DNA from: Nocardioides marinisabuli
GTDB taxonomy: Bacteria; Actinomycetota; Actinomycetes; Propionibacteriales; Nocardioidaceae
Direction: 5' to 3'
NCBI RefSeq assembly: GCF_013466785.1
Contig: NZ_CP059163.1
Location: 3,658,001 to 3,722,000, forward strand
Length of the DNA: 64,000 nt
The notes under the pieces are model-generated. The model had not been told where the DNA came from, did no database searches, and was given only the letters and a program-made list of their open reading frames with translations. The position numbers and the translations under genes are program-made. Positions within the stretch are counted from its first letter, which is position 1. Every line of letters begins with the position of its first letter. Below are positions 1 through 13,895 of this stretch, piece after piece.

Positions 1-86
1 GCATCACCACGCTGCGCGAGGACCCGGCGACCGGCGACCGGCGCGTCGAGGTGCTCGGCGACGTGCGGCACCTCGACGCGCCCTGA
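1..86 (+). CDS. C-terminal tail of an unidentified protein (partial)
   Basis: An open frame enters from the left edge and stops with TGA at 84-86, giving 27 residues that end in VRHLDAP. The charged tail (REDPATGDRR) carries no recognisable domain, so no function can be assigned. It converges on the SGNH lipase gene, whose stop lies about 10 bases downstream. The rest of the gene is outside the window. Confidence 0.5.
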   Translation, partial: ITTLREDPATGDRRVEVLGDVRHLDAP

Positions 87-96
87 GGCGTGGGCC

Positions 97-1122
97 TCAG
101 CGTTGCTGGCGGGCCCGCCACCGCTCGATGTCGACGCCCGCCCGGTCGGCGGCCCGTCGGGCCCGGCGGCTGTCGAGGTCGGGTGCGTGCACCACGGCGG
201 GCTCGATGCCGGCGTCGAGGTCGGCGTACGGCCGCTGGCTGCGGGCGATCTCGGCGGCCGGGACCCGGCGCTCCCCGGTGGGCCGGGCGGTCCCGGCGGG
301 CACCTGGGCCTCGACGGCGGGCAGGTACCCCTGGGCGTGGCCCGGGACGTTGGGGTGGTAGCTCTCGACGACCGGGTAGGACAGGCCGTTGAGCCACTCG
401 GTGTCGGCGCACACCGCGTGGCCGACGAAGCGGCTGGTCGGGTCGGCGAAGCCGAGGCCCTGGGCCGAGGCCTGCTCGCGCAGCCGCTGGTTGAGGAGGT
501 CGGCGGTCGCGTTGAGCTGGGCGCGCTCGGAGGCGGAGAAGAAGGTGAGCGCGTTGCAGTCCTCGTCGCCGAAGACGCGCGGGTAGCCGGCGACCACCAC
601 GCGCGCCTGCGGTGCACGGGTGCGGATCTGGGAGTAGAGCGTGGACAGCCGCCCGGGCAGGGTGGTGTTGATGAAGCTGCGCGCCCCGTCGACGGCCTTC
701 GTGCAGCTGGCCATCCACCACGGCGTGGCACAGGTGGTCAGCACGTCGGCGAACCCGGCGTCGTTGCCGCCCACCGAGATGGTGACGTAGGCGGTCGAGG
801 CGCTGAGCGCGCCGAGCTGGGCCGCGGTCACGTCGGCCACCACCGCGCCCGAGCACGCGCGCAGGTCGAGCGAGTAGCCGCGACGGGCCGCCAGCAGGCT
901 GGGGTAGGCCCTGGTCGAGCGCAGGCAGTCGGTGCCGTCGGCGACGTAGGAGCGGGTTCCGGTGCCTGAGGAGTAGGAGTCCCCGAGGGCGACGTACGAC
1001 GGCCCGGCCTGGTCGGCGGAGACGGCCGGGGTCGTGGGACCCGCGGGGGAGAGCAGGGCGCCGAGGACGGCGAGGGGCAGGGCGGCGCGCCGGAGGGCGC
1101 GGCCGGTGGGACGAGCAGCCAC
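97..1122 (-). CDS. Secreted SGNH/GDSL-family lipase or esterase
   Basis: This 341-residue protein belongs to the SGNH hydrolases that include secreted Streptomyces lipases. A signal peptide (RRAALPLAVLGALL, cleavage near residue 36) is followed by block I GDSYSSG (47-53, nucleophile Ser49), block III GGND (118-121) and block V YHPN with the catalytic His256. Six cysteines (66, 90, 131, 140, 189, 238) fit three disulfides, as known in this family. It should hydrolyse ester lipids outside the cell. The last ~70 residues are Arg/Ala-rich and charged, beyond the usual domain. The GTG start sits directly before the signal peptide. The gene is divergent from the YwqG-like gene across a 186-base gap that holds a perfect palindrome. 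Confidence 0.88.
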   Translation of the reverse strand: MAARPTGRALRRAALPLAVLGALLSPAGPTTPAVSADQAGPSYVALGDSYSSGTGTRSYVADGTDCLRSTRAYPSLLAARRGYSLDLRACSGAVVADVTAAQLGALSASTAYVTISVGGNDAGFADVLTTCATPWWMASCTKAVDGARSFINTTLPGRLSTLYSQIRTRAPQARVVVAGYPRVFGDEDCNALTFFSASERAQLNATADLLNQRLREQASAQGLGFADPTSRFVGHAVCADTEWLNGLSYPVVESYHPNVPGHAQGYLPAVEAQVPAGTARPTGERRVPAAEIARSQRPYADLDAGIEPAVVHAPDLDSRRARRAADRAGVDIERWRARQQR

Positions 1123-1157
1123 GTGAGACTTCCGATCCGAGACAGGGTCACCCCGAT

Positions 1158-1171
1158 GTGACCCGGGTCAC
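1158..1171. promoter_or_regulatory. 14-bp perfect palindrome in a divergent promoter region
   Basis: GTGACCCGGGTCAC reads the same on both strands and lies in the gap between the divergent lipase and YwqG-like genes, 36 bases upstream of the lipase start. It could be an operator for either gene. No regulator is encoded next to it, so the binding protein is unknown. Confidence 0.35.
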
Positions 1172-1308
1172 CCATAGGTACCACACGGGGTATCGAGGGC
1201 CGGGTCGCGCGCAGGGCCGAGCCGGACCCGGGTGGGTGACAGGGGGGCCGCCCGCTGCGATGCTGGGCCGCCCGTGCGGCACCGGTCCGTGCGTGGGAGG
1301 GGAGCGGC

Positions 1309-2157
1309 GTGGGCTACGCGGAGGCGCTGGACGCGCTGGTGGAGGCGGCACCACCCGGCTCGGGGGTGCGTTCGCTGCTGCGCCCGTGTGCGGCCGGGCT
1401 GGTCAGCGAGGACACCGAGCGCACCGGCGTCCTGCGCCGGCGTACGCCGGTGGCGCCGCCCGTGACCGGCTCCTACGTCGGGGGGCACCCCTTCCTGCCC
1501 GACGACGCCGAGTGGCCCCGCGACCCGGACGAGTGGCCGATGCACTTCGTGCTGCAGGTGGCCTTCGCCGACGTGCCCGCCCTGCCGGGCTTTCCGCGCG
1601 AGGGGCTGCTGCAGATGTTCGTGCGTGACGACTCGACCCACGGGCTCACCTTCGACGACACCGCCGGGACCCGCGGTCTGCTGTGCCGCTGGTACGACGC
1701 CGCCGCGCTGGCGCGACCGGTCGAGGTGACCTCCACGACGCCGGTCTTCACCAGCGACGACTCACCGCTGGCCGACCCGCAGCACCCGGTGGCGCTGGAG
1801 TTCACGTCCATCTGGTCGCTGCCGCTGGGCTGGGAGAACCTGGCCGACGACGTGGCGGCCGCCCCGGAGGCGTTCGCCGCGCTCGAGGAGCTGCTCGAGA
1901 CCCGCGAGGACCTCGTCGAGGCGCTCGAGCAGGCCGTGGCCGAGCACGGTCGGTGGAGCGGGGTCCACGTCGGCGGCTGGCCGTCGTTCGTGCAGGGCGC
2001 CCCCGACGTGCCGGCGTACGGCTCCTCGCAGCTGCTGGTCGGCATGGCCGGCGGGCTCTTCGAGTGGGGCGACGTCGGCAACGCCCACCTCTTCGGCGAC
2101 CCCGAGGCCCTGGCCGCGGGTGACGTCTCGCGGCTGTGGTGGGAGTGGGCGAGCTGA
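1309..2157 (+). CDS. YwqG-like protein (DUF1963)
   Basis: The 282-residue product matches the DUF1963/YwqG pattern: a hydrophobic FVLQVAFADVP stretch followed by PREGLLQMFV near residues 80-110, and the late VGGWPSFVQ motif near 222-230. The molecular role of this family is not established. The GTG start at 1309 follows a purine-rich GGGAGGGGAG. The end overlaps the downstream nucleotidyltransferase gene by about 20 bases, which suggests coupled translation. Confidence 0.8.
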   Translation: MGYAEALDALVEAAPPGSGVRSLLRPCAAGLVSEDTERTGVLRRRTPVAPPVTGSYVGGHPFLPDDAEWPRDPDEWPMHFVLQVAFADVPALPGFPREGLLQMFVRDDSTHGLTFDDTAGTRGLLCRWYDAAALARPVEVTSTTPVFTSDDSPLADPQHPVALEFTSIWSLPLGWENLADDVAAAPEAFAALEELLETREDLVEALEQAVAEHGRWSGVHVGGWPSFVQGAPDVPAYGSSQLLVGMAGGLFEWGDVGNAHLFGDPEALAAGDVSRLWWEWAS

Positions 2158-2810
2158 GGGTCCCGCTCGTCCGCAGCCCCGCGGAGCAGGCCGAGGACGA
2201 GGCGTTCCTGCGCCTGTACGGCGAGTGGGCGCCGCTGACGCCGGGCGAGATGGCCGCCGAGATGGCCGGCTTCGACCGGCCGTGGTGGGTGGTCGGCGGC
2301 TGGGCGGTGGAGGCCGCGACCGGGTTCCGGCGCGAGCACGAGGACCTCGACGTCTCGATCCTGGCCTGCGACGTGCCGGCCCTCGTCGAGCACCTGCGCG
2401 GGCGCTGGCACGTCTGGAACAACGCAGGCGGGGTGCTGCGGCCGCTGGGGGAGCGGTGGACCGACGTCGAGGACCCCGCCAGCCAGCTGTGGCTGCGCGC
2501 GAGCGCGGCGGACCCGTGGGTGGTCGACGTGCCCCTGACACCGGACCGCGACGGGCGCTGGACCCACAAGTTCCTGCCCGGTGAGGACGCCCGGGTCGAG
2601 GACGTGACGTGGCTGGCCGACGACGGCATCCGCTACCTGGCGCCCGAGATCGTGCTGTCCTACAAGGCCCGGCTCGGGCGGGCCAAGGACGACCCCGACC
2701 TGGAGGCGTGCCTGCCGGTGCTCACGTCCGCGAAGCGGGTGTGGCTGTGGCGGGCGGTCGAGCAGACCGCGCCGGGCCACCCGTGGCTGGATCGTCTCCA
2801 GCAGCCCTAG
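2136..2810 (+). CDS. Nucleotidyltransferase-fold protein (ANT(2'')/AbiEii-like)
   Basis: The 224-residue protein carries the pol-beta nucleotidyltransferase signature: GGWAV (residues 54-58) followed by HEDLDVSI (68-75), whose two Asp residues would hold the catalytic metal. This resembles aminoglycoside 2''-adenylyltransferases and the AbiEii group. Substrate cannot be told from sequence. Three in-frame GTG codons (2136, 2139, 2145) compete for the start, and all overlap the preceding gene. Its stop codon overlaps that of the IS481-family remnant on the other strand, so the mobile element abuts the gene exactly at its end. Confidence 0.72.
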   Translation: MVGVGELRVPLVRSPAEQAEDEAFLRLYGEWAPLTPGEMAAEMAGFDRPWWVVGGWAVEAATGFRREHEDLDVSILACDVPALVEHLRGRWHVWNNAGGVLRPLGERWTDVEDPASQLWLRASAADPWVVDVPLTPDRDGRWTHKFLPGEDARVEDVTWLADDGIRYLAPEIVLSYKARLGRAKDDPDLEACLPVLTSAKRVWLWRAVEQTAPGHPWLDRLQQP

Positions 2811-3040
2811 GTGTTCTCCCCTTGGAGGTTGGGTACGCGGTCTGCGGTTGTTCTGCCGGCCAGTGAGGTGTTGCGTCGGTGGTGATTGCAGGTGTGGAGG
2901 AAGCCGGGGAAGGCTGCAGCAGTCCCTTGTGACTCGGAGAGGTAGGGCTGGGCGTTGGCATTCCTCGACATGGTGCGGTCGAACCGTTCGACTTTGCCGT
3001 TGACGGAGCCCCGCGGGGTGGTGGGCTTTGAGGTGGTCCT
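2807..3040 (-). pseudogene. IS481-family transposase, 3' fragment
   Basis: About 75 codons encode the C-terminal part of the rve integrase-type catalytic domain. NGKVERFDRT is the glutamate-bearing motif of the DDE triad, followed by AQPYLSES, FLHTCNHHRRNTSLAG and the terminal VPNLQGENT typical of actinobacterial IS481 transposases. Everything upstream, including the first two Asp residues, is missing. The frame runs without a stop into the preceding IS256 remnant. Confidence 0.8.
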
Positions 3041-3074
3041 CGGTGCCCTACTCGCCGCTCTGGATGGCGACGCG

Positions 3075-4260
3075 CGGACCGGTATCCATGCCGGTGTGAG
3101 CAGCGCCATGGATTCTTTTGAGAGGTAGCGGCGGTCGCCAGCGATCCACCCGTCGTGCATGTCGATCAGTACCGCGCCGACGAGCCTGATCACAGCAGCG
3201 CGTTGGGAAGATCCTCACGACCCGGCTGCGGCGCTTTATCTCCTCGTTGACCCGCTCGAGCGGGTTGGTCAACGAGATCTTGCGCCAGTGCGCCTTCGGG
3301 AAGCCGGTGAAAGCGAGCCCTTCGGCCTTGGCCTGGTCCATCAGCGGCCCGACCGTCGGGAACGAGGCAGCGAGCTGGTCGCGGACCTCGTCCCAAGCGT
3401 CGCTGACCGCCTCGGGATCGGGTTGGGCGAAGATCGTCCGGAAGATCGCGGCGACCATGTCGGCGTGGGTCTTGGGCGCGCGGGCGAGCAGCTTGCGGGC
3501 GAAATGGACCCGGCACCGTTGGTGCGCAGAATGCTGGGAGGACCGCATCAACGCGGCCACGAGACCAGAGTGCTGATCGGCGATCACCAGCTGCACCCCG
3601 CCCAGGCCTCGCTGCCTGAGGGTGAGCAGGAACGCGAGACCCAGCACCTCGCGGCTGCCGTCGGCGGCGATCCCGGTGGCCACCACGACCGCCATCGACA
3701 CAACCTGGCCGCCCTTGTCGGGCTTGTTGCGCACATGGAGGTAGGTGACGTCGAGGTAGACGTACAGAAACGGCGCGTGGTTCAGGGGTCGGGTGTGGAG
3801 GCGCCGACGGGCTGATCGAGGTCCTCGGAGATCCGGGAAACCTCGGACTTGGAGATCCCGGAGTCTGCGCCTAGCGCGACCACGAGGTCGTCGACACTGC
3901 GTGTGCTGACGCCGTGGACCTAGGCCTCCATCACGACCGCGTACAGCGACTGATCGATCCGGCGACGGGACTCAAGGATGGCGGAAATACGAGCCCTTGC
4001 CGAGCTGGGGGATCTTCAGCTCGATGTCGCCGGCCTTGGTGGCCAGCAGCTTAGGGCGGGTACCGTTGCGTATCGGTGACACGCTCGCCGGTGCGCTCGT
4101 AACGCTCCGCGCCGATTACGCCCGCGGCCTCGAAGTCGACGAGCTCTTGGAGCACGGTGCGCACCGACTCGCGAATCAGGTCGACACCATCGCCGGTGCG
4201 GAACGCCTCGAGCCGCTCGGGCCAGGGCTGTGTCGCGTGCGGGGTTCGGTGGGGGCTCCA
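3075..4260 (-). pseudogene. IS256-family (Mutator-like) transposase, degenerate
   Basis: Segments recognisable in successive frames include VLQELVDFEAAG, IGAERYERTGERV, RRRIDQSLYAVVMEA, GADSGISKSEVSR, VYLDVTY (first Asp), GGVQLVIADQHSG (second Asp), HWRKISLTNPLERVNEEIKRR (catalytic Glu, frame 3048-3734) and GDRRYLSKESMALL. At least four frameshifts and an in-frame TAG (near 3920) interrupt the gene. About 16 residues between EVLGLA and LLTLRQRGL are deleted relative to intact relatives. The N-terminus is also lost. Confidence 0.85.
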
Positions 4261-4660
4261 TCAGACTCGGCACGCGACACTGTTCACGTTGTTGGTGATG
4301 AGGCGCATCGCCCCTGAGGCTGCCCGGAGCAAGGCCAAGACGAACCTAAATTGAGCCGAGCGCGCCTGCTACGGCAAGCGGCAGGACCCGCCTGTGCCCG
4401 AGGTGCCGCCTCCCCGCGCGTGAAGCGAGCCCCGTCGCCCTGATTGTGGCGGGTCGATCGCGCGTGCTCCCCTGGGGCGCAGGCTCTTGGCAGAGTGCTC
4501 TGCGTCCTTTCAAGACCCCCGGTTCGGTGGCTCTGACCGGGGGTCTTGTCGTGTGTGGTGGGGGCACGGTGGGTGAGGCCCGGCGGGTGGGGGCACCGCC
4601 CGGCTCCGGCACAGGGCGCTCGAGTGAGGAGTCGGCCCCCGCTGCAGGAACCTGCGCGCC
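4261..4660. other. Gene-free stretch with a strong hairpin
   Basis: I see no convincing gene here. It contains a 6-bp hairpin (GCAGAG/CTCTGC near 4490) and the 13-bp perfect inverted repeat listed separately. It links the IS remnant to the 3' end of the large SGNH hydrolase gene. Confidence 0.4.
4511..4548. terminator. 13-bp perfect stem-loop, terminator-like
   Basis: CAAGACCCCCGGT at 4511-4523 pairs perfectly with 4536-4548 across a 12-base loop. No run of T follows on either strand, which is common for actinobacterial terminators. It lies about 110 bases past the stop codon of the minus-strand SGNH hydrolase gene. Confidence 0.5.
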
Positions 4661-6835
4661 TCAGGAGCAGGACATGAGTCGCTGCCACGGGTCGGGCTGG
4701 ACCTGCTCGCCCGCGGAGGAGCAGGTGGACTGCGCGGACTTCAGGTCGCTCAGGGTCGTCTGGTCCCGGGTGCCCAGGGTGGAGGTGGAACCCATCCTCC
4801 CGGCTGGCGCGGGAGCGGTCCGGGGATACCGGTAGAACTCCCACGAGGGGAAACGGTCGGCCGTGAGGTTCACGTTGAAGGTCGGACCGGCGGCACGCAG
4901 CCGTACGGTCGCGTTGATGCGCCCGAAGTCCTTGGGGTTCCAGCCCTCCCAGGAGTTGATGGCCGACACGCTGAGAAGCAGGTCTTCGCCCGACCTGGCC
5001 ACGGACACGTAATTCACCTTGGACTCGTCGCTGTCGCTGATGCTCGAGGCGTTCGGGACGACTTCGATGGGGAAGGCGTTATGGCAGACCAGGTTTGTGC
5101 TGTTCCAGACGAACGTGAAGCCGACGGCGCAGGAGCGGTGGACATAGATCCCGATCTCCCCGGTGGCGGTGTCCCAGGCGACTCCGACCTTGGAGGAGGC
5201 GTACGGGTTGTCATCGAAGCTGCGGTGGTCACCGATGGCATCATCAAAGCTGCTCTTGTTGGCAATGAACCCGCGTGAGACGACGATGCCGCGGTCCGTG
5301 CCGGGCGCGACCTGTGTTGTGAGCATCCGGTCGCCGTCGTCGGCCACCCTGTCGAAGTAGCGATTGCGGGCAAGCAGGTGGTTGTAGTTGTTCTGGTAAG
5401 GCAGCACCCAAGGCGGTGCGGTCTGGTCGGGTCCCTCGCCGCCATAGCGGGAGGCGACGACAATGTAGTAGCGGCAGAACTCCGTGACGTACTCCTGCGT
5501 CCAGGTGGTCTTGCTGCCGAGATTCCACTGCACCAGTTGGTAGGCCGACCTCCCGGGGGGCAGAGGCCCACACTCGTTGGCTGCGACGGAGTAGACGTGG
5601 TAATCGTCGGCCCCGGCCACCGGATCCCATTGCAGCGTCACCGTGTACGGGCGGTCGGGATTGGCGGTGGCGCGGAGGTTCGGGACGACATCGAGCGGGG
5701 CCGCGGTCGCTGATCCGGCGGGGGACCGGGTGCTGGCGTAGGTTCCCCGCTCCGTCTTTACAGCGAAGGCGATCGTGTGTCCGGCGGGGACCATCTTCTC
5801 CGTCCAGGAATCCGCACCGACGGGGTACGGGTACGCCTTGAAGCTCTCGCCGAGCGTGACGTCGCGGCTGTAGAGCGTGTAGCCACCCGCGCCGAACACG
5901 TGCGGCCAGGACACGACGAGCTTGCGACCGCTGCGAGCGACGGACACGGTTTCCGGAGCCGCAGGGGTGAGGTCCGCGGGCAGACTGGACGGCACCGCTC
6001 CGTAGTAGTTGCCGACGCCAAAGTCGCCGCGCAGCCGGTCGGCGAACGCCTTGGCGATGACCGCCTCGCCGCGCACGTTGGGATGGAGTCCGTCGTAGCT
6101 GTCGATCGACTGGTCGTACGCCGAGGCGAGATTCACCAGTTGAACGGGCGAGGTGCTCGTGGACAGGCTCGACAGGGCGCTTGGCAGCAGCGAGTTGTAC
6201 TGCAAGATCTTCTCGGGGAGGGCCGGCTGGCTCGCCAGCGCGCTCCGCTGCGGGACGTTGGCGACCAGGATCCGGATGTTCGGCTTGGCGGCGCGGGCGT
6301 TCTTGATCAACTCCCGCAGGCTCGACACGGTCCCCGCGGGATCGCTGACTCCCCACGCGAGGTCGTTGAAGCCGAGTTCGACGAGCAGGTAGTCCGGCGT
6401 GTAGGTCGACACGTTGGAGGCGATCTCCCACTTCGCCTGAGCCATCTGCCAGCCCCACTGAGCCAGGTGCTGGCTGTCTGAGAAGGAGACCCCGGGGCGG
6501 TAGGCGCCGGTGTGTACCGGTGCTGGAGAGACGTCCGGCCAGCCCGCCGGATAGGCGGCCGGCAGCTTCGTGGTGCCCGTCCAGGGGCCGACGAACTCTG
6601 AGGTCACCCCAGAGTTCGTCAGGTGCTTCTTGAGCCGATACCGCCACGTGTAGTCGCCCTCGAGGCCCTGACTGATCGAATCGCCGACGACCATGATGCG
6701 CGGCGCTGAGAGCGAGACGGGCACGATGCGGTCGGCGACGACCGGTCGTACTAGGCCCGACGCAGCGAACAGCGCGAGCAGCGCGACGAGCAGCGGGAGG
6801 CGGGTGAGGAAGCGGGCGACGACGAGACGCACCAT
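4661..6835 (-). CDS. Large secreted SGNH hydrolase with fibronectin-like repeats
   Basis: The chosen start (6835) gives 724 residues beginning MVRLVVARFL, a classic signal peptide. An upstream in-frame start would add 20 residues before the signal and is unlikely. The N-terminal third is an SGNH hydrolase: VVGDSISQG (block I), GFNDLAWG (block III, with Asn) and DGLHPN (catalytic His). The middle contains two stretches resembling fibronectin type III folds (VSWPHVFGAGGYTLY; LQWDPVAGADDYHVY). The C-terminal ~250 residues are unfamiliar and end in a Cys-containing tail (STCSSAGE...MSCS). GC content looks lower than in flanking genes. With an IS wreck on one side and a jetD fragment on the other, it is probably part of a transferred segment. 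Confidence 0.8.
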   Translation of the reverse strand: MVRLVVARFLTRLPLLVALLALFAASGLVRPVVADRIVPVSLSAPRIMVVGDSISQGLEGDYTWRYRLKKHLTNSGVTSEFVGPWTGTTKLPAAYPAGWPDVSPAPVHTGAYRPGVSFSDSQHLAQWGWQMAQAKWEIASNVSTYTPDYLLVELGFNDLAWGVSDPAGTVSSLRELIKNARAAKPNIRILVANVPQRSALASQPALPEKILQYNSLLPSALSSLSTSTSPVQLVNLASAYDQSIDSYDGLHPNVRGEAVIAKAFADRLRGDFGVGNYYGAVPSSLPADLTPAAPETVSVARSGRKLVVSWPHVFGAGGYTLYSRDVTLGESFKAYPYPVGADSWTEKMVPAGHTIAFAVKTERGTYASTRSPAGSATAAPLDVVPNLRATANPDRPYTVTLQWDPVAGADDYHVYSVAANECGPLPPGRSAYQLVQWNLGSKTTWTQEYVTEFCRYYIVVASRYGGEGPDQTAPPWVLPYQNNYNHLLARNRYFDRVADDGDRMLTTQVAPGTDRGIVVSRGFIANKSSFDDAIGDHRSFDDNPYASSKVGVAWDTATGEIGIYVHRSCAVGFTFVWNSTNLVCHNAFPIEVVPNASSISDSDESKVNYVSVARSGEDLLLSVSAINSWEGWNPKDFGRINATVRLRAAGPTFNVNLTADRFPSWEFYRYPRTAPAPAGRMGSTSTLGTRDQTTLSDLKSAQSTCSSAGEQVQPDPWQRLMSCS

Positions 6836-7081
6836 CAGGGACTCCCGAGACTGAAGTGGATGACCGGAGTCGGAGCATAGAGCCTCTTGAGGCAAAGGGG
6901 ACAGACCTCGCCGACGACGGCGTCCTGACTCGGCCCGAGGCGCCCGGATTTACGTTTCCGGAGGACGGGTTGGGGTCGCAGATCTGAGTTGTACTGACCG
7001 GGTTGAACCAGTCGAAGCAATACTTTGCACCCACAAGCAGGTGTTGCGACGACCGGTTAATTTCGCCCTGGGCGCCGCGGT
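6836..7081. other. Gene-free junk-like stretch between SGNH gene and jetD remnant
   Basis: No frame here resembles a known protein apart from a short minus-strand stretch reading TILHSDRGAQ at about 7069-7098, which recalls the HSDRG motif of IS3/IS481 transposases. It is too short to call. The region looks like the join between successive insertions. Confidence 0.3.
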
Positions 7082-7372
7082 CTGAGTGCAGGATCGTGCC
7101 GACCGGAGTGGCTCGGCCACCTGCCGTGGGCCGGCACGGTCCGCGTCCGGTGCTGGGGCGACATCGACACGCACGGGTACGCCAGCCTTGCACGGGTACG
7201 TAGGGCGGCTCCGTATACCGAGAGCGTCCTGATGGACCTCGACACGCTGCTGACGCACCGGAAGTTCTGCGCCAGCGCGCCGAAGCAGGCCACCGGCGAG
7301 CTGACCGAGCTCACCGTCGACGAGGCCCGCCTTTGTGAGGGGCTGTGGGCCCGAAGGCCTCTTGGTGAGTGA
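7082..7372 (+). pseudogene. jetD remnant (Wadjet system nuclease subunit, C-terminal Toprim part)
   Basis: A frame without an obvious start translates to EWLGHLPWAG, then WGDIDTHGYASLARVR, then SVLMDLDTLLTHR and TGELTELTVDEARLCEGLW, ending at TGA 7370-7372. This is the conserved core of the DUF2220/DUF3322 C-terminal domain of JetD, the topoisomerase/primase-like nuclease of Wadjet defence systems, including the acidic DxD of GDIDTHG. Only about 90 of roughly 380-400 residues survive. The N-terminal domain and the last part of the Toprim domain are gone, and no jetA, jetB or jetC is present. It is a relic of a lost defence island. Confidence 0.75.
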
Positions 7373-7450
7373 TGGTTGCTGTGGTAGCTCCACACCTCAC
7401 CGGAAGCCTTCACCCATGTCCGGACGCCGCGCCTTTCCTAACCTCCGTGG

Positions 7451-8257
7451 TCAGCACACCTGCGTCTGCGTCGACACGACGTGCTCGAGGAGGTCGAGGG
7501 TGTCCTGACCCCGGTGACCGGCGTCGTCGTACAGCCCGGGCGAGCCCGGCCGTTCCCGCACGCGCAGCGCCTCCCTGGCCACCCGGTGCCAGCGGACGTC
7601 GAGGTGGGCCAGGACGTGCCGGCCCGCGCCGCTCTTGGAGGTGAGCTCTCCTCGGGTCAGCAGGTGGTGCAGCCTGGCGCAGCCCAGCACCGTCCAGGCG
7701 ACCGCGTCGTCCTGCGTGCCCACCGCTACCGGTCCCTCCGCGGTCAGCTGCTCGAGCAGGGAGCGCCAGTAGGTGTCGAGGTTGTCGCGGGTGAAGCGGG
7801 CCAGCTGCGCCGGGTCGGTCCGCACCGTGGGCAGGTGGCCCCGGACGACCACGGGTCGCTGGGCCAGCTCGTGCCACGTCACGGGGTTGATGTCGGTGCC
7901 TCCGCCCGGCGAGAAGACGCCCTGGTACTGGACCGGCCGGGGCCCCAGGGTCGTGGGATCGGCGGTCAGGTCGTCGGTGGTGCAGTGGAAGCCGTCGTAC
8001 GCAGGGGCAGGGTGTCGTGCCGAGGTCGCCCGGTGCGCCTCCTCGAGGAGGTCGAGCTCCGCACCTCGCGGCAGCTCGTGCCACACGCTGACGAAGTCGA
8101 CGTCGCTGCCGGCGAAGAACTCGCCCCAGCCCAGCGAGCCGTGCAGGAACAGCCCGACGAGGCGGCCTGGGAGCCGCCCGTCGACCTCGTGCAGGTAGGT
8201 CTGGGTGAGGTCCGCGACGGGGCGGGGGAGAGGGGCCACGACAGCAAAGGTAGGCAC
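7451..8257 (-). CDS. Aminoglycoside adenylyltransferase-like nucleotidyltransferase (DUF4111)
   Basis: The 268-residue protein has LHGSLGWGEFFAGSDVDF: Gly40-Ser41 and Asp52/Asp54 form the nucleotidyltransferase active site seen in ANT(3'')-type enzymes. The C-terminal helical half (LDTYWRSLLEQL, VLGCARLHHLLTRGELTSKSGAG) matches DUF4111 found in AadA. It may adenylylate an aminoglycoside or another hydroxylated small molecule. I chose the GTG at 8257; a GTG at 8239 is also possible. The frame stays open far upstream but there it is only the shadow of the VOC and GyrI-like genes. Confidence 0.75.
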   Translation of the reverse strand: MPTFAVVAPLPRPVADLTQTYLHEVDGRLPGRLVGLFLHGSLGWGEFFAGSDVDFVSVWHELPRGAELDLLEEAHRATSARHPAPAYDGFHCTTDDLTADPTTLGPRPVQYQGVFSPGGGTDINPVTWHELAQRPVVVRGHLPTVRTDPAQLARFTRDNLDTYWRSLLEQLTAEGPVAVGTQDDAVAWTVLGCARLHHLLTRGELTSKSGAGRHVLAHLDVRWHRVAREALRVRERPGSPGLYDDAGHRGQDTLDLLEHVVSTQTQVC

Positions 8258-8280
8258 TCGCGGTGCCTCGCCGTGCCACC

Positions 8281-8286
8281 TAGGGT
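8281..8286 (+). promoter_or_regulatory. Leaderless-type -10 hexamer of the VOC gene
   Basis: TAGGGT ends 7 bases before the ATG at 8294. The spacing implies transcription starting at or next to the start codon. Confidence 0.5.
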
Positions 8287-8293
8287 GCTGGGC

Positions 8294-8686
8294 ATGGCCT
8301 CTCGTGTCGCCAACATCTGCGTCGACGCCCACGACCCCGTAGCCCAGGCTCGCTGGTGGGAGCAGGTCCTCGACGACTTCCACGTCGTGCCCGACGGCGC
8401 CTGGGGCGACGACGAGGCGGAGCTGCGCGGCCCCGGTGGTCGATGGCTGGAGTTCCTGCGCGTACCGGAGTCCAAGACCGTCAAGAACCGGATGCACCTG
8501 TGCCTGCGCCCGGTCGGGACGACGTGCGACGCCGAGGTCGAGCGCATCGTCGCGCTGGGGGCCAGCGTCGTCGACGACCGTCGGGGGATGGCCGACGGCG
8601 GCTGGGTGGTGCTGGGCGACCCCGAGGGCAACGAGTTCTGCGTGCTGTCCACCAGCGCCGAGGACGCCGGCATCAGCCAGGCGTAG
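8294..8686 (+). CDS. VOC-family (glyoxalase-like) protein
   Basis: This 130-residue single-domain protein shows the vicinal oxygen chelate pattern: an opening VANICVDAHDP, ARWWEQVLD, WLEFLRVPE in the middle, MHLCLRP, and the closing VVLGDPEGNEFCVL. Members act as dioxygenases, glyoxalases or ligand-sequestering resistance proteins. Nothing in the sequence selects one. It is divergent from the adenylyltransferase gene with only 36 bases between them and is followed after 12 bases by the GyrI-like gene. Confidence 0.82.
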   Translation: MASRVANICVDAHDPVAQARWWEQVLDDFHVVPDGAWGDDEAELRGPGGRWLEFLRVPESKTVKNRMHLCLRPVGTTCDAEVERIVALGASVVDDRRGMADGGWVVLGDPEGNEFCVLSTSAEDAGISQA

Positions 8687-8698
8687 GGCTGGGCTGGC

Positions 8699-9313
8699 AT
8701 GGACAAGGTCGACCTCAAGCGCACGATCGCCACCTACCGGGCACCCCGGGGCCGGTTCGAGGTGGTCGACGTGGCGACGGCGACGTACCTGGCGGTCGAC
8801 GGGCACGGCGACCCCAACACCTCGGCCGACTTCACCGGCGCGGTCGCGGCGCTCTACCCGGTGGCCTACCGGACCAAGTTCGCCAGCAAGCGCGACCTCG
8901 GCCGCGACTACGTCGTGCCACCGCTCGAGGGCCTGTGGTGGGCCGACGACATGGCGTCGTTCACGTCGAGGCGGGACAAGGCTCGGTGGCACTGGACCCT
9001 GCTGCTCGTGCTGCCGGACTGGATCGACGAGGCGCTCGTCGACGCTGCGTTGCAGCAGGTCGGCGCGGGGGACCGGCCGGAGCGCCTCGACGACGTGCGC
9101 CTCGAGACGCTGAGCGAGGGGCGGTGCGTGCAGACGCTGCACGTCGGACCGTTCGACGAGGAGGCGGAGGTGCTGGAGCGGATGCACGCCGACATCGCCG
9201 AGCGCGGCCTGCGGATGACGGGCAGGCACCACGAGATCTACCTGAGCGACCGGCGACGGACGGCGCCCGAGAGGCAGCGCACCATCCTGCGACAGCCCGT
9301 CCGCCCCGCCTGA
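8699..9313 (+). CDS. GyrI-like small-molecule-binding protein
   Basis: The 204-residue protein fits the GyrI/SbmC-like fold used to bind small molecules: YLAVDGHGDPN near residues 29-39, PLEGLWWADD near 75-84, and CVQTLHVGPFDEEAEVLERM near 142-160. The final ISLD-type segment is HEIYLSDRRR. No DNA-binding domain is present, so it is a stand-alone binding or hydrolase-type protein. It sits 12 bases after the VOC gene and probably shares its transcript. Confidence 0.78.
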   Translation: MDKVDLKRTIATYRAPRGRFEVVDVATATYLAVDGHGDPNTSADFTGAVAALYPVAYRTKFASKRDLGRDYVVPPLEGLWWADDMASFTSRRDKARWHWTLLLVLPDWIDEALVDAALQQVGAGDRPERLDDVRLETLSEGRCVQTLHVGPFDEEAEVLERMHADIAERGLRMTGRHHEIYLSDRRRTAPERQRTILRQPVRPA

Positions 9314-9754
9314 CTACTCGGGGACCGCGGTCTCGATGCAGTGACGTGCTCGGTCGACCAGGTCGTCGATCTCGAGGCCGTACGTCGGCCCGTCCGTGCC
9401 GGCGTACGCCGTCAGGTGGCCGGTGGCGCGCTCGAGCAGGCGCTGGGCGCCGGTGGGGTTGCCGCGCCGGGCGTGCGTGAGGCCGACGCAGAGCTGGGCC
9501 AGGCCCTGCCACAGCGGCCGCTCGGCCTCGGGGCAGTCCTTCCAGCGGGCCTCGAGGACCTCGTGCGCGGAGAACGGTCGACCGACGTCGAGTAGCCCAC
9601 GCGCGGCGGCGAGCGTCTCGAGCGGCGGCAGCGGGTCCTCCGAGACCGGCTCGACGCCGACGGTGTCGTAGGGCAGCGGTCGTCCGAGGGCATCGCGGGG
9701 CCGAGCCTGTCGAGCTCGCCCGTCGTCGTCGCGGTCGCGTCCGGTCGAGGTCAT
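9314..9754 (-). CDS. DUF309 family protein
   Basis: The 146-residue product has the DUF309 core: PFSAHEVLEARWKDCPEAERPLW, LAQLCVGLTHARRGN and GAQRLLERA. The His-Glu motif in AHEVLE is characteristic and may bind a metal, but the role of the family is unknown. Its ATG overlaps the stop of the glycoside hydrolase gene (ATGA), so translation is probably coupled. It is the last gene of a four-gene minus-strand series starting at 12504. Confidence 0.85.
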   Translation of the reverse strand: MTSTGRDRDDDGRARQARPRDALGRPLPYDTVGVEPVSEDPLPPLETLAAARGLLDVGRPFSAHEVLEARWKDCPEAERPLWQGLAQLCVGLTHARRGNPTGAQRLLERATGHLTAYAGTDGPTYGLEIDDLVDRARHCIETAVPE

Positions 9755-10842
9755 CTGTCGACCCTAGCCGTCGGGGACGGGCGCCCGGAGAGCCAATCGC
9801 GCAGCGCGTGGTAGACCGGCTTCGGCTGCATCGTGGTGCTCATGATCCCGTAGCCGCCCTGGTGGTCGTCAGTGCCCGGCTCCGCGCGCGCCGCGTAGAG
9901 GAACACCTTCTCGACGAAGGGGTAGCGCCGTGCCGTCTCCGTCAGGGCCGCCACCGTGTGGGCAGCCTGGTCGGCCTCCGTCACGCCCTTGGCCCAGGCG
10001 GGCTCGGAGCCCGTGTTGGGGTGCGAGGACCATCCGAGCTCGGTCAGCCACAGCGGGGACTCCACGCGGTAGCGCTGCATGAGATCGTGGACGGCGCCGA
10101 GGTGGGCGAACTGCCAGGGGTGCGTGCCGTCGCCGTCGAGCGGACCGGTGTCCGCGGGCACCTGGTACGGGTGGGTGGCCATGACGTCGAAGTGCCCGGT
10201 GGCCCCGGCGCGGTAGGTGCGCTCGATCCACTCGACGTCGTTGTGCATCGTGCCGCCGTAGACGACCTGGACGCCGTCGGCGCCCGACCGGGCCCGGGTG
10301 GCCTCGTACGCCGCCCGCAGCAGGTCGGTGTAGGTCTCCGGGGTCGCCCCGGCCAGGAAGTCGGCGGAGTTGGGCTCGTTCCAGACCTCCCAGGCCTGCA
10401 CCTTGCCCGCCCAACGCTCTGCCGCCCACCCGAACGCCTCGCCGTAGTCACGGGCATCGCGGGGCGCGGAGCGCTCACCGGCGCTGGGAACCGCCCACGC
10501 GGGGGTCAGCCACAGCGTGCCGAGCACCCTCAGCCCCCGTGCGTGCGCCATCGAGACGACCCGGTCGACGAGCCGAGGTCCCCAGGCGTCTGGGTCGATG
10601 GGGCCGGGGGAGCCCTGGAGCATCGCCCACGAGACGTCGAGCCGCACCCACGTGGCGCGCATCTCGACCAGCCGGTCCAGCAGTGCCGCCCGGTCGTCGT
10701 CGGTGTAGTGGTCCCACGTGCCGTGGAACTGGACCCCGACTTCCAATGGCGTCAGGTGTCGGGCGGCGTCCATGGCGGCCACGGTAGCCAGGCTCGATGC
10801 AGGGGAGGTCGTGTGCCCGGGCGTTGGGTCTGCAACAGCCAC
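9751..10842 (-). CDS. Glycoside hydrolase, clan GH-A type
   Basis: This 363-residue TIM-barrel hydrolase keeps both catalytic glutamates: acid/base Glu156 in WNEPN and nucleophile Glu268 in TELGW. LEVGVQFHGTWDHY and the ATWVRLDVSW strand precede them. It resembles GH39/GH5-like cellulase-superfamily enzymes, but the sugar substrate cannot be told. No clear signal peptide is visible: the first ~23 residues are hydrophilic, and an internal ATG at residue 24 (MDAARHL) is a credible alternative start. It overlaps the DUF309 gene by 4 bases. A 64-base gap with an AT-rich dyad separates it from the APH-like gene upstream. Confidence 0.8.
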   Translation of the reverse strand: MAVADPTPGHTTSPASSLATVAAMDAARHLTPLEVGVQFHGTWDHYTDDDRAALLDRLVEMRATWVRLDVSWAMLQGSPGPIDPDAWGPRLVDRVVSMAHARGLRVLGTLWLTPAWAVPSAGERSAPRDARDYGEAFGWAAERWAGKVQAWEVWNEPNSADFLAGATPETYTDLLRAAYEATRARSGADGVQVVYGGTMHNDVEWIERTYRAGATGHFDVMATHPYQVPADTGPLDGDGTHPWQFAHLGAVHDLMQRYRVESPLWLTELGWSSHPNTGSEPAWAKGVTEADQAAHTVAALTETARRYPFVEKVFLYAARAEPGTDDHQGGYGIMSTTMQPKPVYHALRDWLSGRPSPTARVDR

Positions 10843-10853
10843 CCAGTTCCACG

Positions 10854-10875
10854 TTACTTGACATAATGTAAGTTA
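10854..10875. promoter_or_regulatory. AT-rich imperfect dyad upstream of the glycoside hydrolase gene
   Basis: TTACTTGACATAATGTAAGTTA is an imperfect inverted repeat and the most AT-rich spot for several kb. It lies 12-33 bases upstream of the glycoside hydrolase start and is a candidate operator or core promoter. Confidence 0.35.
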
Positions 10876-10906
10876 TCGGCGATCCAGTGAAAGCACCGAG
10901 AAGTGG

Positions 10907-11737
10907 TTAAAGGAGGTGGACCCACTGGTCGAATCGCTGTCGCAGCACTTGCGGTGTGATGTGTGGCCGGCCGACACCGCTGTAGTTCTCTGCCCAGCCT
11001 TCGACGCTCGTGGCCGCCAGCGCGGCGGCCTGCAGGTCCCAGGCACCCACATCACGACAAGTGTGCTGTGTTTGCCGTTCGTACTCGGCAAGGAACACGT
11101 CGGCGGCCTCCACAGACCCCAGCAGCACCAGGTCCTGACGGCACCACGCCAGGTCGACGCCACGCGGTGCTTGCCTGGCGCCTGACCAGTCCACCACTCC
11201 GGTCAGCGTGTCGCCCACCCACAGTGTGTTGCCGCTCCAGAAGTCGTAGTGCGTGAGAACCAGCTCGCTCGTGTCCAAGGACACCCACTCGGAGCGTGCA
11301 CGGTCTGCAAGGTCCGAGTTCCCGGCAGGCGGCGCCCCTGGAGCCTTCCGGAGAGTCTCAGCCTTCTGTGTGTGGATGCGTGCCAGCGCGCGCGCCAGCT
11401 CGACCGCCAGCAGCTCCAAGGGAAGGCTAGGTGCCGGCGGACCGCCTGGCCGGTACAGGCTGACGAGGACGGGCTGCACCCGATCCAGGTCGTGCTCGAC
11501 CAGGACCGGCACCAGGTCCCCCAGCGCCTCGAGCCTGGCCGACACCTCGACCTCGCGTGCCGGTGCTGCGTCGCCGGGCGGGAACATGCGAACGACGTAC
11601 GGCGTCCCTGCCTCGTCGACGGTCAAGACCGTGACGGCGTGCTGACCGCCGCCGAGTCGCCGAACGGGCGTCAGTGCCCGCCCGAGAAGCATCTCCGCCT
11701 CAAGGGCCACCACCTGATCGGTGCGCTCCGGCTCCAT
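10907..11737 (-). CDS. Aminoglycoside phosphotransferase (APH/choline kinase-like) family protein
   Basis: The 276-residue kinase-fold protein has the APH catalytic loop HYDFWSGN (His163, Asp165, Asn170) and the metal-binding VVDWSGA (Asp183). The N-lobe includes RRLGGGQHAVTVL and VVRMFPP. Many members phosphorylate sugars, choline or other alcohols rather than antibiotics. Its first base is the last base of the upstream ComB-like stop codon region (TGATG), implying coupled translation and a shared transcript. Confidence 0.8.
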   Translation of the reverse strand: MEPERTDQVVALEAEMLLGRALTPVRRLGGGQHAVTVLTVDEAGTPYVVRMFPPGDAAPAREVEVSARLEALGDLVPVLVEHDLDRVQPVLVSLYRPGGPPAPSLPLELLAVELARALARIHTQKAETLRKAPGAPPAGNSDLADRARSEWVSLDTSELVLTHYDFWSGNTLWVGDTLTGVVDWSGARQAPRGVDLAWCRQDLVLLGSVEAADVFLAEYERQTQHTCRDVGAWDLQAAALAATSVEGWAENYSGVGRPHITPQVLRQRFDQWVHLL

Positions 11738-12504
11738 CAGCCGGCCTCGCGGAAGGCGTCGCCGACAAGTCCGGGCACGACGCGGGAGGCATCGACGTCA
11801 GCGGCCACGGTGACGTCGTCGGCGAACCCCTTGGACGCCAGCTCGCGCCCGCCGACACAGTCGCGCATCGTCGCTGCGAGCTGGCCGACCGTCGACGTCC
11901 ACAGCGCGGCGGCCGCACGTGCCTCAGGGCTCATCTCGTCGTCGTACCCGAGCTCCGACAGGACGCTCAGCACCGCGCCGGCGCCCAGGTGGTCCTCCAG
12001 AGCAGGTCGCAGCGAGTCGTCCTGGTGCCATCTCTCCCCTGCGGCGACCACCGTGACCGACCGGCCTGCGGTGATCTCGTGAGCCAGGCGTCGGCCCACT
12101 GCGCTCGCGTTGCGCAGGCAGCCGATCAGCACCTGGGTCCCGGCGCCCTGCAGCGCAGCCGAGATGGTCGATCCGTTCGGCGAGGGCAGCACCAGTCTCG
12201 GCACCGGCTCGCAGGTCAGCAGCCCGGCCGGCGACAGGGACGGCGCCGGTACGCCGTCGCCACGGGCGGCCTCGAGGCGACCGACCGCGAGCGTGGCGTC
12301 CTGCTGCTCGGCGTACGCCGCGGCGCGGGCGTCCTTCCAGGCGAACGGCAGCACGTGCATCCCGCGTTCGACGGCGATCGTCACCGACGTCGAGAAGCTC
12401 AGCACATCGACGACGACGCTCACGTCGGCGGACGCGGCGGCAGCGCCCACGGGACCCCAGTCGAGACGGACGGCATGGTCGCGCTGACCGAAGATCTCGT
12501 CCAC
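11737..12504 (-). CDS. ComB-like 2-phosphosulfolactate phosphatase family protein
   Basis: The 255-residue protein matches the ComB family: VVDVLSFSTSVTIA (Asp33), SPNGST (108-113), GERW (156-159) and SLRPALEDHLGAGA (164-177). ComB removes phosphate from 2-phosphosulfolactate in archaeal coenzyme M synthesis. Bacterial homologues without ComA or ComC neighbours, as here, probably act on another phosphorylated acid. The start is GTG at 12504 with TAGGGT exactly 6 bases upstream. It leads the series ComB, APH, glycoside hydrolase, DUF309. Confidence 0.8.
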   Translation of the reverse strand: MDEIFGQRDHAVRLDWGPVGAAAASADVSVVVDVLSFSTSVTIAVERGMHVLPFAWKDARAAAYAEQQDATLAVGRLEAARGDGVPAPSLSPAGLLTCEPVPRLVLPSPNGSTISAALQGAGTQVLIGCLRNASAVGRRLAHEITAGRSVTVVAAGERWHQDDSLRPALEDHLGAGAVLSVLSELGYDDEMSPEARAAAALWTSTVGQLAATMRDCVGGRELASKGFADDVTVAADVDASRVVPGLVGDAFREAG

Positions 12505-12510
12505 GACCGC

Positions 12511-12516
12511 ACCCTA
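12511..12516 (-). promoter_or_regulatory. Leaderless-type -10 hexamer of the ComB-like gene
   Basis: On the minus strand TAGGGT ends 6 bases before the GTG at 12504. Confidence 0.5.
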
Positions 12517-12557
12517 ACCGGGACTCCCCCGGGCCGATCGGCAGCTGCGGAAAGTTC

Positions 12558-12573
12558 TCGAAAATGTTTTCGA
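12558..12573. promoter_or_regulatory. SOS-box-like palindrome upstream of DUF222-HNH gene
   Basis: TCGAAAATGTTTTCGA has 7-bp perfect arms around TG. It differs from the mycobacterial LexA box pattern TCGAAC-N4-GTTCGA only at the two symmetric inner positions. It lies 54 bases before the ATG at 12627. Confidence 0.5.
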
Positions 12574-12626
12574 CGAGGGCCCTCTGAGCAGGCCGGACTG
12601 TCGGTGCTGGCTGCTTGGATGAAGTC

Positions 12627-13895
12627 ATGAGCACGACGACCCGGCACCCCCTCGCCGAGGCCGTCGCGCGTGTGCACTCGGCCCTCGACCAGGTGGCCGA
12701 GACACCCACCTGGTCGCTGAGCCAGTCGGGCACGGCCGACCTGCTGACCGACCTCGCGCGGGCCCAGTCGCGGTTCGCCGAGCTGCAGGCGCGCGTGCTC
12801 GCGCACGCCGACACGGTGGCCGTCCAGGAGCGCTCGGCAGCCCCGTCGGTCGCGGTCTGGTTGGCCAACGCCACGATCACGACCAAGCGTGACGCCGTGC
12901 GTCAGACCCGCTTCGCCGCCGCACTGAGCCGGTACGACGTGCTGCGGGGAGCCCTGGGCGCCGGCGACCTCAACCTCGAGCAGGCCCAGGTCGTGGCCCG
13001 GGCGCTCGACGAGCTGCCCGACGACCTCGACGCCGGGGTCCTCGCCCAGGCCGAAGCGGCCCTGGTCGGCCTCGCCCGCGTCCACGACGCCAAGGCGCTG
13101 CGCGTGCTGGGCCGCCGCATCCTCGACGTCGTCGCCCCCGAGGTCGGCGAGGCGTGGGAGGCCGAGAAGCTGGCCGAGGAGGAGCGCGAAGCCGATCGCA
13201 CCGCGTCCTTCCGGATGCGCGACCAGGGAGACGGCCGCACCCGCGGCAGCTTCACGATCCCGACCCTCGCGGCGGAGATGCTGCAGAAGGTGCTGATCGC
13301 CTACGCCTCCCCGCGTCGCGACGACCGGTCCGGGGCCGACGCGGCCGACGCGGCAGACGCAGGCGACACCGAGCAGGTGCGCAAGCCCTCCCGGTCGCGG
13401 TGGGGCCGGGCGTTCGTCGAGCTCGTCGAACGCCTCGACCCGCGCGACCTGCCCCGCAGCGGCGGCGTCAACGCTGCGGTGGTCGTCACCATGACCACCG
13501 CGACCCTCGGCGGCGCACTCGCCGCCGCGACCCTCGACACCGGTTCCCGCATCTCCGCCGGGACCGCTCGTCGGCTGGCCTGCCAGGCAGGGCTGCTGCC
13601 GGCGGTGCTGGGTGGCGACAGCGAGATCCTCGACCTGGGCCGCACGCGGCGGTTCTTCTCCGGTCCCCAGCGCATCGCCATGACCGTCCGTGACGGCGGC
13701 TGCACGGCGCTCGGCTGCGACGCACCGGCCGGCATGTGCGACGCCCACCACGAGGACTTGTGGTCCCACGACGGGCTGACCGACCTGGGGCGAGGTCGGT
13801 TGCTCTGCGGTCACCACCACCGTCGCGCCCACGACCCCGCCTACGAGACCAGGGTCGTCGAGCGCAACCAGGTCGAGTTCCACCGTCGGACCTAG
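12627..13895 (+). CDS. DUF222 / HNH endonuclease (13E12 repeat family)
   Basis: The 422-residue protein combines an N-terminal DUF222 region (ADLLTDLARAQSRFAELQARVLA near residues 35-58) with a C-terminal HNH nuclease domain (GGCTALGCD, MCDAHHEDLWSHDG, LLCGHHHRRAHD). The two Cys of TALGC and the His pairs fit the zinc and metal sites of HNH enzymes. Such genes are multicopy in actinobacteria, and several M. tuberculosis 13E12 members are in the LexA regulon. I chose the ATG at 12627 over 12615 because the longer form adds only MDEV. Residues 235-245 form an Ala-Asp run (DAADAADAGD). Confidence 0.88.
   Translation: MSTTTRHPLAEAVARVHSALDQVAETPTWSLSQSGTADLLTDLARAQSRFAELQARVLAHADTVAVQERSAAPSVAVWLANATITTKRDAVRQTRFAAALSRYDVLRGALGAGDLNLEQAQVVARALDELPDDLDAGVLAQAEAALVGLARVHDAKALRVLGRRILDVVAPEVGEAWEAEKLAEEEREADRTASFRMRDQGDGRTRGSFTIPTLAAEMLQKVLIAYASPRRDDRSGADAADAADAGDTEQVRKPSRSRWGRAFVELVERLDPRDLPRSGGVNAAVVVTMTTATLGGALAAATLDTGSRISAGTARRLACQAGLLPAVLGGDSEILDLGRTRRFFSGPQRIAMTVRDGGCTALGCDAPAGMCDAHHEDLWSHDGLTDLGRGRLLCGHHHRRAHDPAYETRVVERNQVEFHRRT

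Follow-up and report, generated by a model that had tools for sequence, protein, structure and literature searches.

A jetD fragment of the type I Wadjet family, very probably non-functional, in an insertion-sequence mosaic of Nocardioides marinisabuli

The jetD fragment and the IS nest around it

The window, that is, the whole stretch of 64,000 nucleotides analysed here (C1:3658001-3722000), belongs to the single-contig, 4,170,026-base genome of N. marinisabuli. Near its left end it carries a short piece of jetD among the remains of several insertion sequences (IS). The features are given below in order of position.

2799..8278: whole extra segment relative to the genomes G099 and G027, about 5.5 kb; its flank matches are adjacent in both
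2804..3002: IS481 left end, same element kind and orientation as the right end, at CTAG; 88% to L043 1696-1894
3048..3734, minus strand: truncated Mutator-family transposase; PF00872, 1.2e-54, profile positions 175-358 of 379
4661..6835, minus strand: open SGNH/GDSL hydrolase gene inside the insert, 724 aa; PF13472, 7.8e-15
7039..7082, minus strand: IS30-like element end (GEINRSSQHL) that adjoins the IS3-like scrap; 33 bp match L026 at 97%
7061..7372, plus strand: open frame holding the jetD remnant, with no ATG, GTG or TTG before 7232
7083..7105, minus strand: IS3-like transposase scrap (VGTILHSDRG), inner border approximate; 7039-7105 matched to L025, DNA identity 82%
about 7106..7345, plus strand: jetD remnant, mid-Toprim (GDIDTHG...SVLMDLDTLL...LTVDEA), about 80 codons; PF09983, PDLC00530 and tblastn with the JetD of genome G117
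7345..7473: IS481-family right end, with the 3' end of jetD fused to it; 93% to L043 2680-2808
7451..8242, minus strand: nucleotidyltransferase-like gene, 263 aa, its 3' end running into the IS481 end; AadA_C, 7.3e-4, under the cut-off

The original prediction had placed a fragment of the JetD Toprim core here, and this identification was confirmed. The motifs GDIDTHG, SVLMDLDTLL and LTVDEA were present in the translation of 7082-7372 (plus strand), and the HMM search that had been proposed for it gave a significant match to Pfam JetD_C (PF09983; 59.8 bits, with the cut-off at 22; 2.8e-16 for the 7061-7372 frame). The same frame matched the PADLOC type I JetD (JetD1) profile PDLC00530 at 4.6e-26 over positions 279-361 of 391. 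Thus 83 of the 391 positions remain and about 79% of the profile is uncovered, so that a complete JetD, with its N-terminal domain and the whole Toprim domain, was not found. In the Toprim core, about 83 residues of the remnant aligned with the G117 JetD at 50% identity, and weak matches were obtained to the solved MksG/JetD chains 8b7f (1.6e-4), 7til (2e-3) and 8q72 (3e-3). The frame had been described as one of 90 codons; an open frame is indeed there, but it has 103 codons (7061-7372, beginning after a stop at 7058 and closing with one that ends at 7372), and jetD homology covers only about 7106-7345 of it. The 15 or so codons before the jetD part come from the mobile-element scrap 7039-7105, and the 8 or so after it from the IS481 end. 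In tblastn with the G117 JetD, homology to intact JetD proteins stopped at 7345, where the IS481 end starts; the left border is approximate, since the same match begins at 7088, inside the scrap. The first ATG, GTG or TTG of the frame, at 7232, falls within the Toprim core. The remnant was the only JetD_C match in the genome, and when the frame was searched against the genome, the two further matches were at chance level (E 0.05 and 4.5), indicating that the jetD part is single-copy.

The wrecked IS elements reported beside the fragment were also found, the IS3-like/IS30-like scrap lying 5' of it and the IS481 end 3' of it. The names IS3-like and IS30-like at 7039-7105 are those we presume from motifs. 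In L026, an IS30-like transposase frame follows the matched 33 bp, and a junction of the same kind occurs in L026 and L028, both from other genomes; we read it as an IS30-like end set within an IS3-like transposase. The IS481 ends resemble those of L043, an element of G099 whose transposase matches LZ_Tnp_IS481. Both ends of this element are present in the window, in the same orientation, whereas its middle (L043 1895-2679) is absent and 4.3 kb of other DNA lies between the ends. Three more distant IS481 copies with both ends were found elsewhere in the genome. All four of the compared IS481 copies have CTAG at both borders, whereas the window has CTAG at the left and CTGC at the right; the pair of ends may therefore come from a single copy whose middle was exchanged or from two separate copies. 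The two window ends show no matching target duplication, which could be due to later mutation.

The Mutator-family transposase is presumably of the IS256 type, and by eye, more broken pieces follow it up to about 4280. The stop codon of the nucleotidyltransferase-like gene falls inside the IS481 end. A longer frame was listed at 7410-8279 (minus strand); by eye it appeared non-coding, and 7451-8242, read in a different frame, is the likely gene.

The same region in related genomes and the origin of the fragment

In G099 (L069), matches to window positions 1230-2798 (86.5%) and 8279-8678 (85%) lie 37 bases apart, and in G027 (L111) the same flank order was found with 36 bases between, indicating that the segment 2799-8278 is either extra here or lost in both relatives. 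The IS ends favour a gain over a loss, the direction being unproved. The island JetD proteins of G027 and G099 are nearly identical, so that the two genomes may be closest kin and may count as one observation. Six further genomes, picked because they matched the left flanking gene, were compared with window positions 1-12000. Five of them (G201, G150, G200, G074 and G078) matched in the left flanking gene only and G060 also in 43 bp at 8608-8650, none of which gave usable synteny. The DNA of 7410-9320 gave scattered single-gene matches only among 59 genus genomes. The nucleotidyltransferase-like gene is missing from the same place in G099 and G027. A GyrI-like gene (8699-9313; window 8679-9304) was also absent between the same neighbours in these two genomes; the stretch thus seems to gain and lose genes.

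Relatives of the frame were taken from the genus genomes because a scan of the genome contig collection with a 96-residue frame gave 76 pattern matches, none of which was confirmed as a relative. At 1e-5, 18 of 215 genus genomes matched, the own genome included. A wider search of the order at E 1e-18 or better returned the own genome and G117 alone (2/391), and six plasmid records held relatives, with identities of at most 50%. Beside jetD, PADLOC recognized JetC in G099, G213 and G117, and JetA in the first two of these.

The jetABCD island of G099 (L036, about 1317-13173) shares its JetD family with the remnant, with 72% DNA identity over 7153-7324. However, it has full-length JetA, JetC and JetD and lies at another locus, and the matching place is empty in the own genome: the island's flanks adjoin there at C1:2234729 and 2234732, 1.43 Mb from the remnant, indicating that this island was never at that place or left it cleanly. 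We therefore rejected this island, which belongs to a different and cleanly empty locus, as the source at the remnant locus. The left flank of the island had 53 matches in the own genome, mostly at 75-86%, and a short sequence at the left border (L036 about 1320-1460) lies behind many of them; ARAGORN found no tRNA gene in that stretch. G099 also has a second full-length jetD (L037 8701-9840; G099:C1, about 2032700-2033839; PDLC00530, 3.7e-132). The frames upstream of it on the same strand were judged by eye too short or unlike jetABC, and one of them we take to be transposase-like.

The fragment had been taken as the trace of a defence island, now without jetABC. The absence of jetABC was upheld: in tblastn with 12 JetA/B/C-like proteins from five loci (five confirmed by profile, the other seven identified by size and operon place only), the window gave no jetA, jetB or jetC match below E 0.16, and the remnant thus does not share an operon with jetA, jetB and jetC as in Wadjet type I. 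A former defence island, however, found no support. PADLOC detected no defence gene cluster among 18 neighbours (8 of 14 picked upstream and 10 of 20 downstream) and two insert frames, one of which (7410-8279) is probably the wrong coding frame; the five genes nearest the insert and the 7451-8242 gene were covered by the Pfam scan only. Weak partial matches appeared in two genes, to SspA/DndA (best 7.3e-9) and to PDC-S07 (1.6e-6, partial). The neighbour proteins that matched SspA/DndA are presumably cysteine-desulfurase-like. Comparison with related genomes, suggested earlier as a way to find an intact jetABCD at this locus, gave instead adjacent flanks in G099 and G027 and, in G099, a jetABCD elsewhere.

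Two routes could lead to the same end state, a dead jetD remnant in an IS nest. The jetD piece may have been already broken on arrival, carried in an IS mosaic that recombination between IS copies had moved, to which we give just under an even chance. The piece is bounded by IS junctions on both sides, and the unlike flanks suggest that the two IS481 ends may stem from different copies; however, the mosaic was not found a second time, and the jetD part is single-copy. The other route, that of the original prediction, is a whole jetABCD operon at this locus that was worn down on the spot through IS insertion and deletion, which we hold to be somewhat less probable than not. The jetD relatives sit in operons (in G099, G117 and G213, profiles identified JetA and/or JetC next to jetD), and the insert has IS ends and genes missing here in two relatives. 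However, the lack of jetA, jetB and jetC in the window and of a defence cluster among the scanned neighbours, the absence of the insert from G099 and G027, and the position of the G099 island at another, cleanly empty locus all count against it. It is very doubtful that the IS481 ends would bound a unit movable in trans by a resident IS481 transposase, with the SGNH gene and defence-gene scraps as its cargo.

A separate jetA-jetC locus

The genome has a jetA-jetC locus of its own, of the MksFEB-like kind, at C1:3236306-3242084 (L067 6307-12085), 0.42 Mb from the remnant; a jetB/mksE would be expected between its two genes. Its JetA matched PDLC00464 (9.8e-190), and its JetC matched PDLC00517 best (1424 bits, against 405 bits for PDLC00512). 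With the Wadjet-type JetC (PDLC00512) and JetA (PDLC00457) profiles, this locus was the only strong match in the genome. JetC relatives at 1e-30 or better, Wadjet-type JetC included, occurred in 126 of 209 genus genomes. No JetD_C match was obtained at the locus. Among 20 fetched MksB-like loci, the own one included, tblastn with five JetD proteins (flanks of at most 1.5 kb) found jetD in one. In that locus (L109 377-1243, genome G190), upstream of the MksB-like gene there is a jetD-like stretch on the other strand, which counts against a clean rule that MksB-like loci are without jetD. The own jetA-jetC locus could be a condensin without a nuclease.

The remnant might then be the lost jetD of this very locus, which has JetA and JetC in a genome whose only JetD_C match is the remnant. 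We consider this highly improbable. PDLC00530 was the best JetD profile for both the remnant and the G117 JetD (JetD proteins of relatives were profiled for G117 and for the solo copy of G099 only), and the best profile for the G117 JetC was PDLC00512, whereas that of the own JetC is PDLC00517; the remnant is therefore probably not the missing nuclease of the locus. The single jetD among the 20 MksB-like loci, within the short flanks searched, argues in the same direction.

The state of the fragment and its meaning

In the Toprim core, the remnant is like Wadjet type I JetD (PDLC00530; PF09983; also called MksG), but the N-terminal domain, the region of the first Toprim Glu and the RLEQE end are all missing, and jetABC does not lie beside it. 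In the nine intact JetD frames of relatives, which are 345-422 aa long, the stretch that matches the remnant is preceded by a Glu in motifs such as VVVEN and followed by RLEQE; both regions are missing from the remnant. In C. glutamicum MksG, E236 and D279 are reported to bind Mg, E236A and D279A drastically impaired activity, and E349 and E351 are alternatively proposed as nucleophilic residues (PMC10123090). If these residues map to the JetD motifs as we assign them, only the D279 region would be left in the remnant.

The remaining frame is open, with a coding-like G+C by codon position (0.69/0.53/0.90), so that decay of the frame itself is unseen, which counts against reading it as dead. 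However, its openness is weak counter-evidence, as open frames are common in the window DNA (81 of at least 80 aa over 16 kb). We regard it as extremely unlikely that the short frame would still be made and active, whether as a partner in JetD dimers, as an inhibitor or otherwise: its 103 codons remain open, but it has no usual start codon before 7232, the codons flanking the jetD part are IS-derived, and the only strong jetC and jetA matches of the genome belong to another subfamily. We are highly confident that the remnant, set in an IS mosaic, derives from a type I Wadjet jetD gene and no longer functions. The jetD DNA would have come in with, or into, the IS nest; successive insertions and deletions would then have erased the rest of the gene, and the fragment would now be without function.

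The jetD fragment is thus a real but very probably dead piece of a known gene, an ordinary genetic relic. In itself it is of little importance, being a further case of a defence gene in decay within rearranged, IS-rich DNA. It does call for caution with automatic defence finders, which could merge the jetA-jetC locus and the jetD scrap into one Wadjet system. Such a merger would mislead, because the scrap is very probably dead and its best profile comes from another subfamily than those of the locus.
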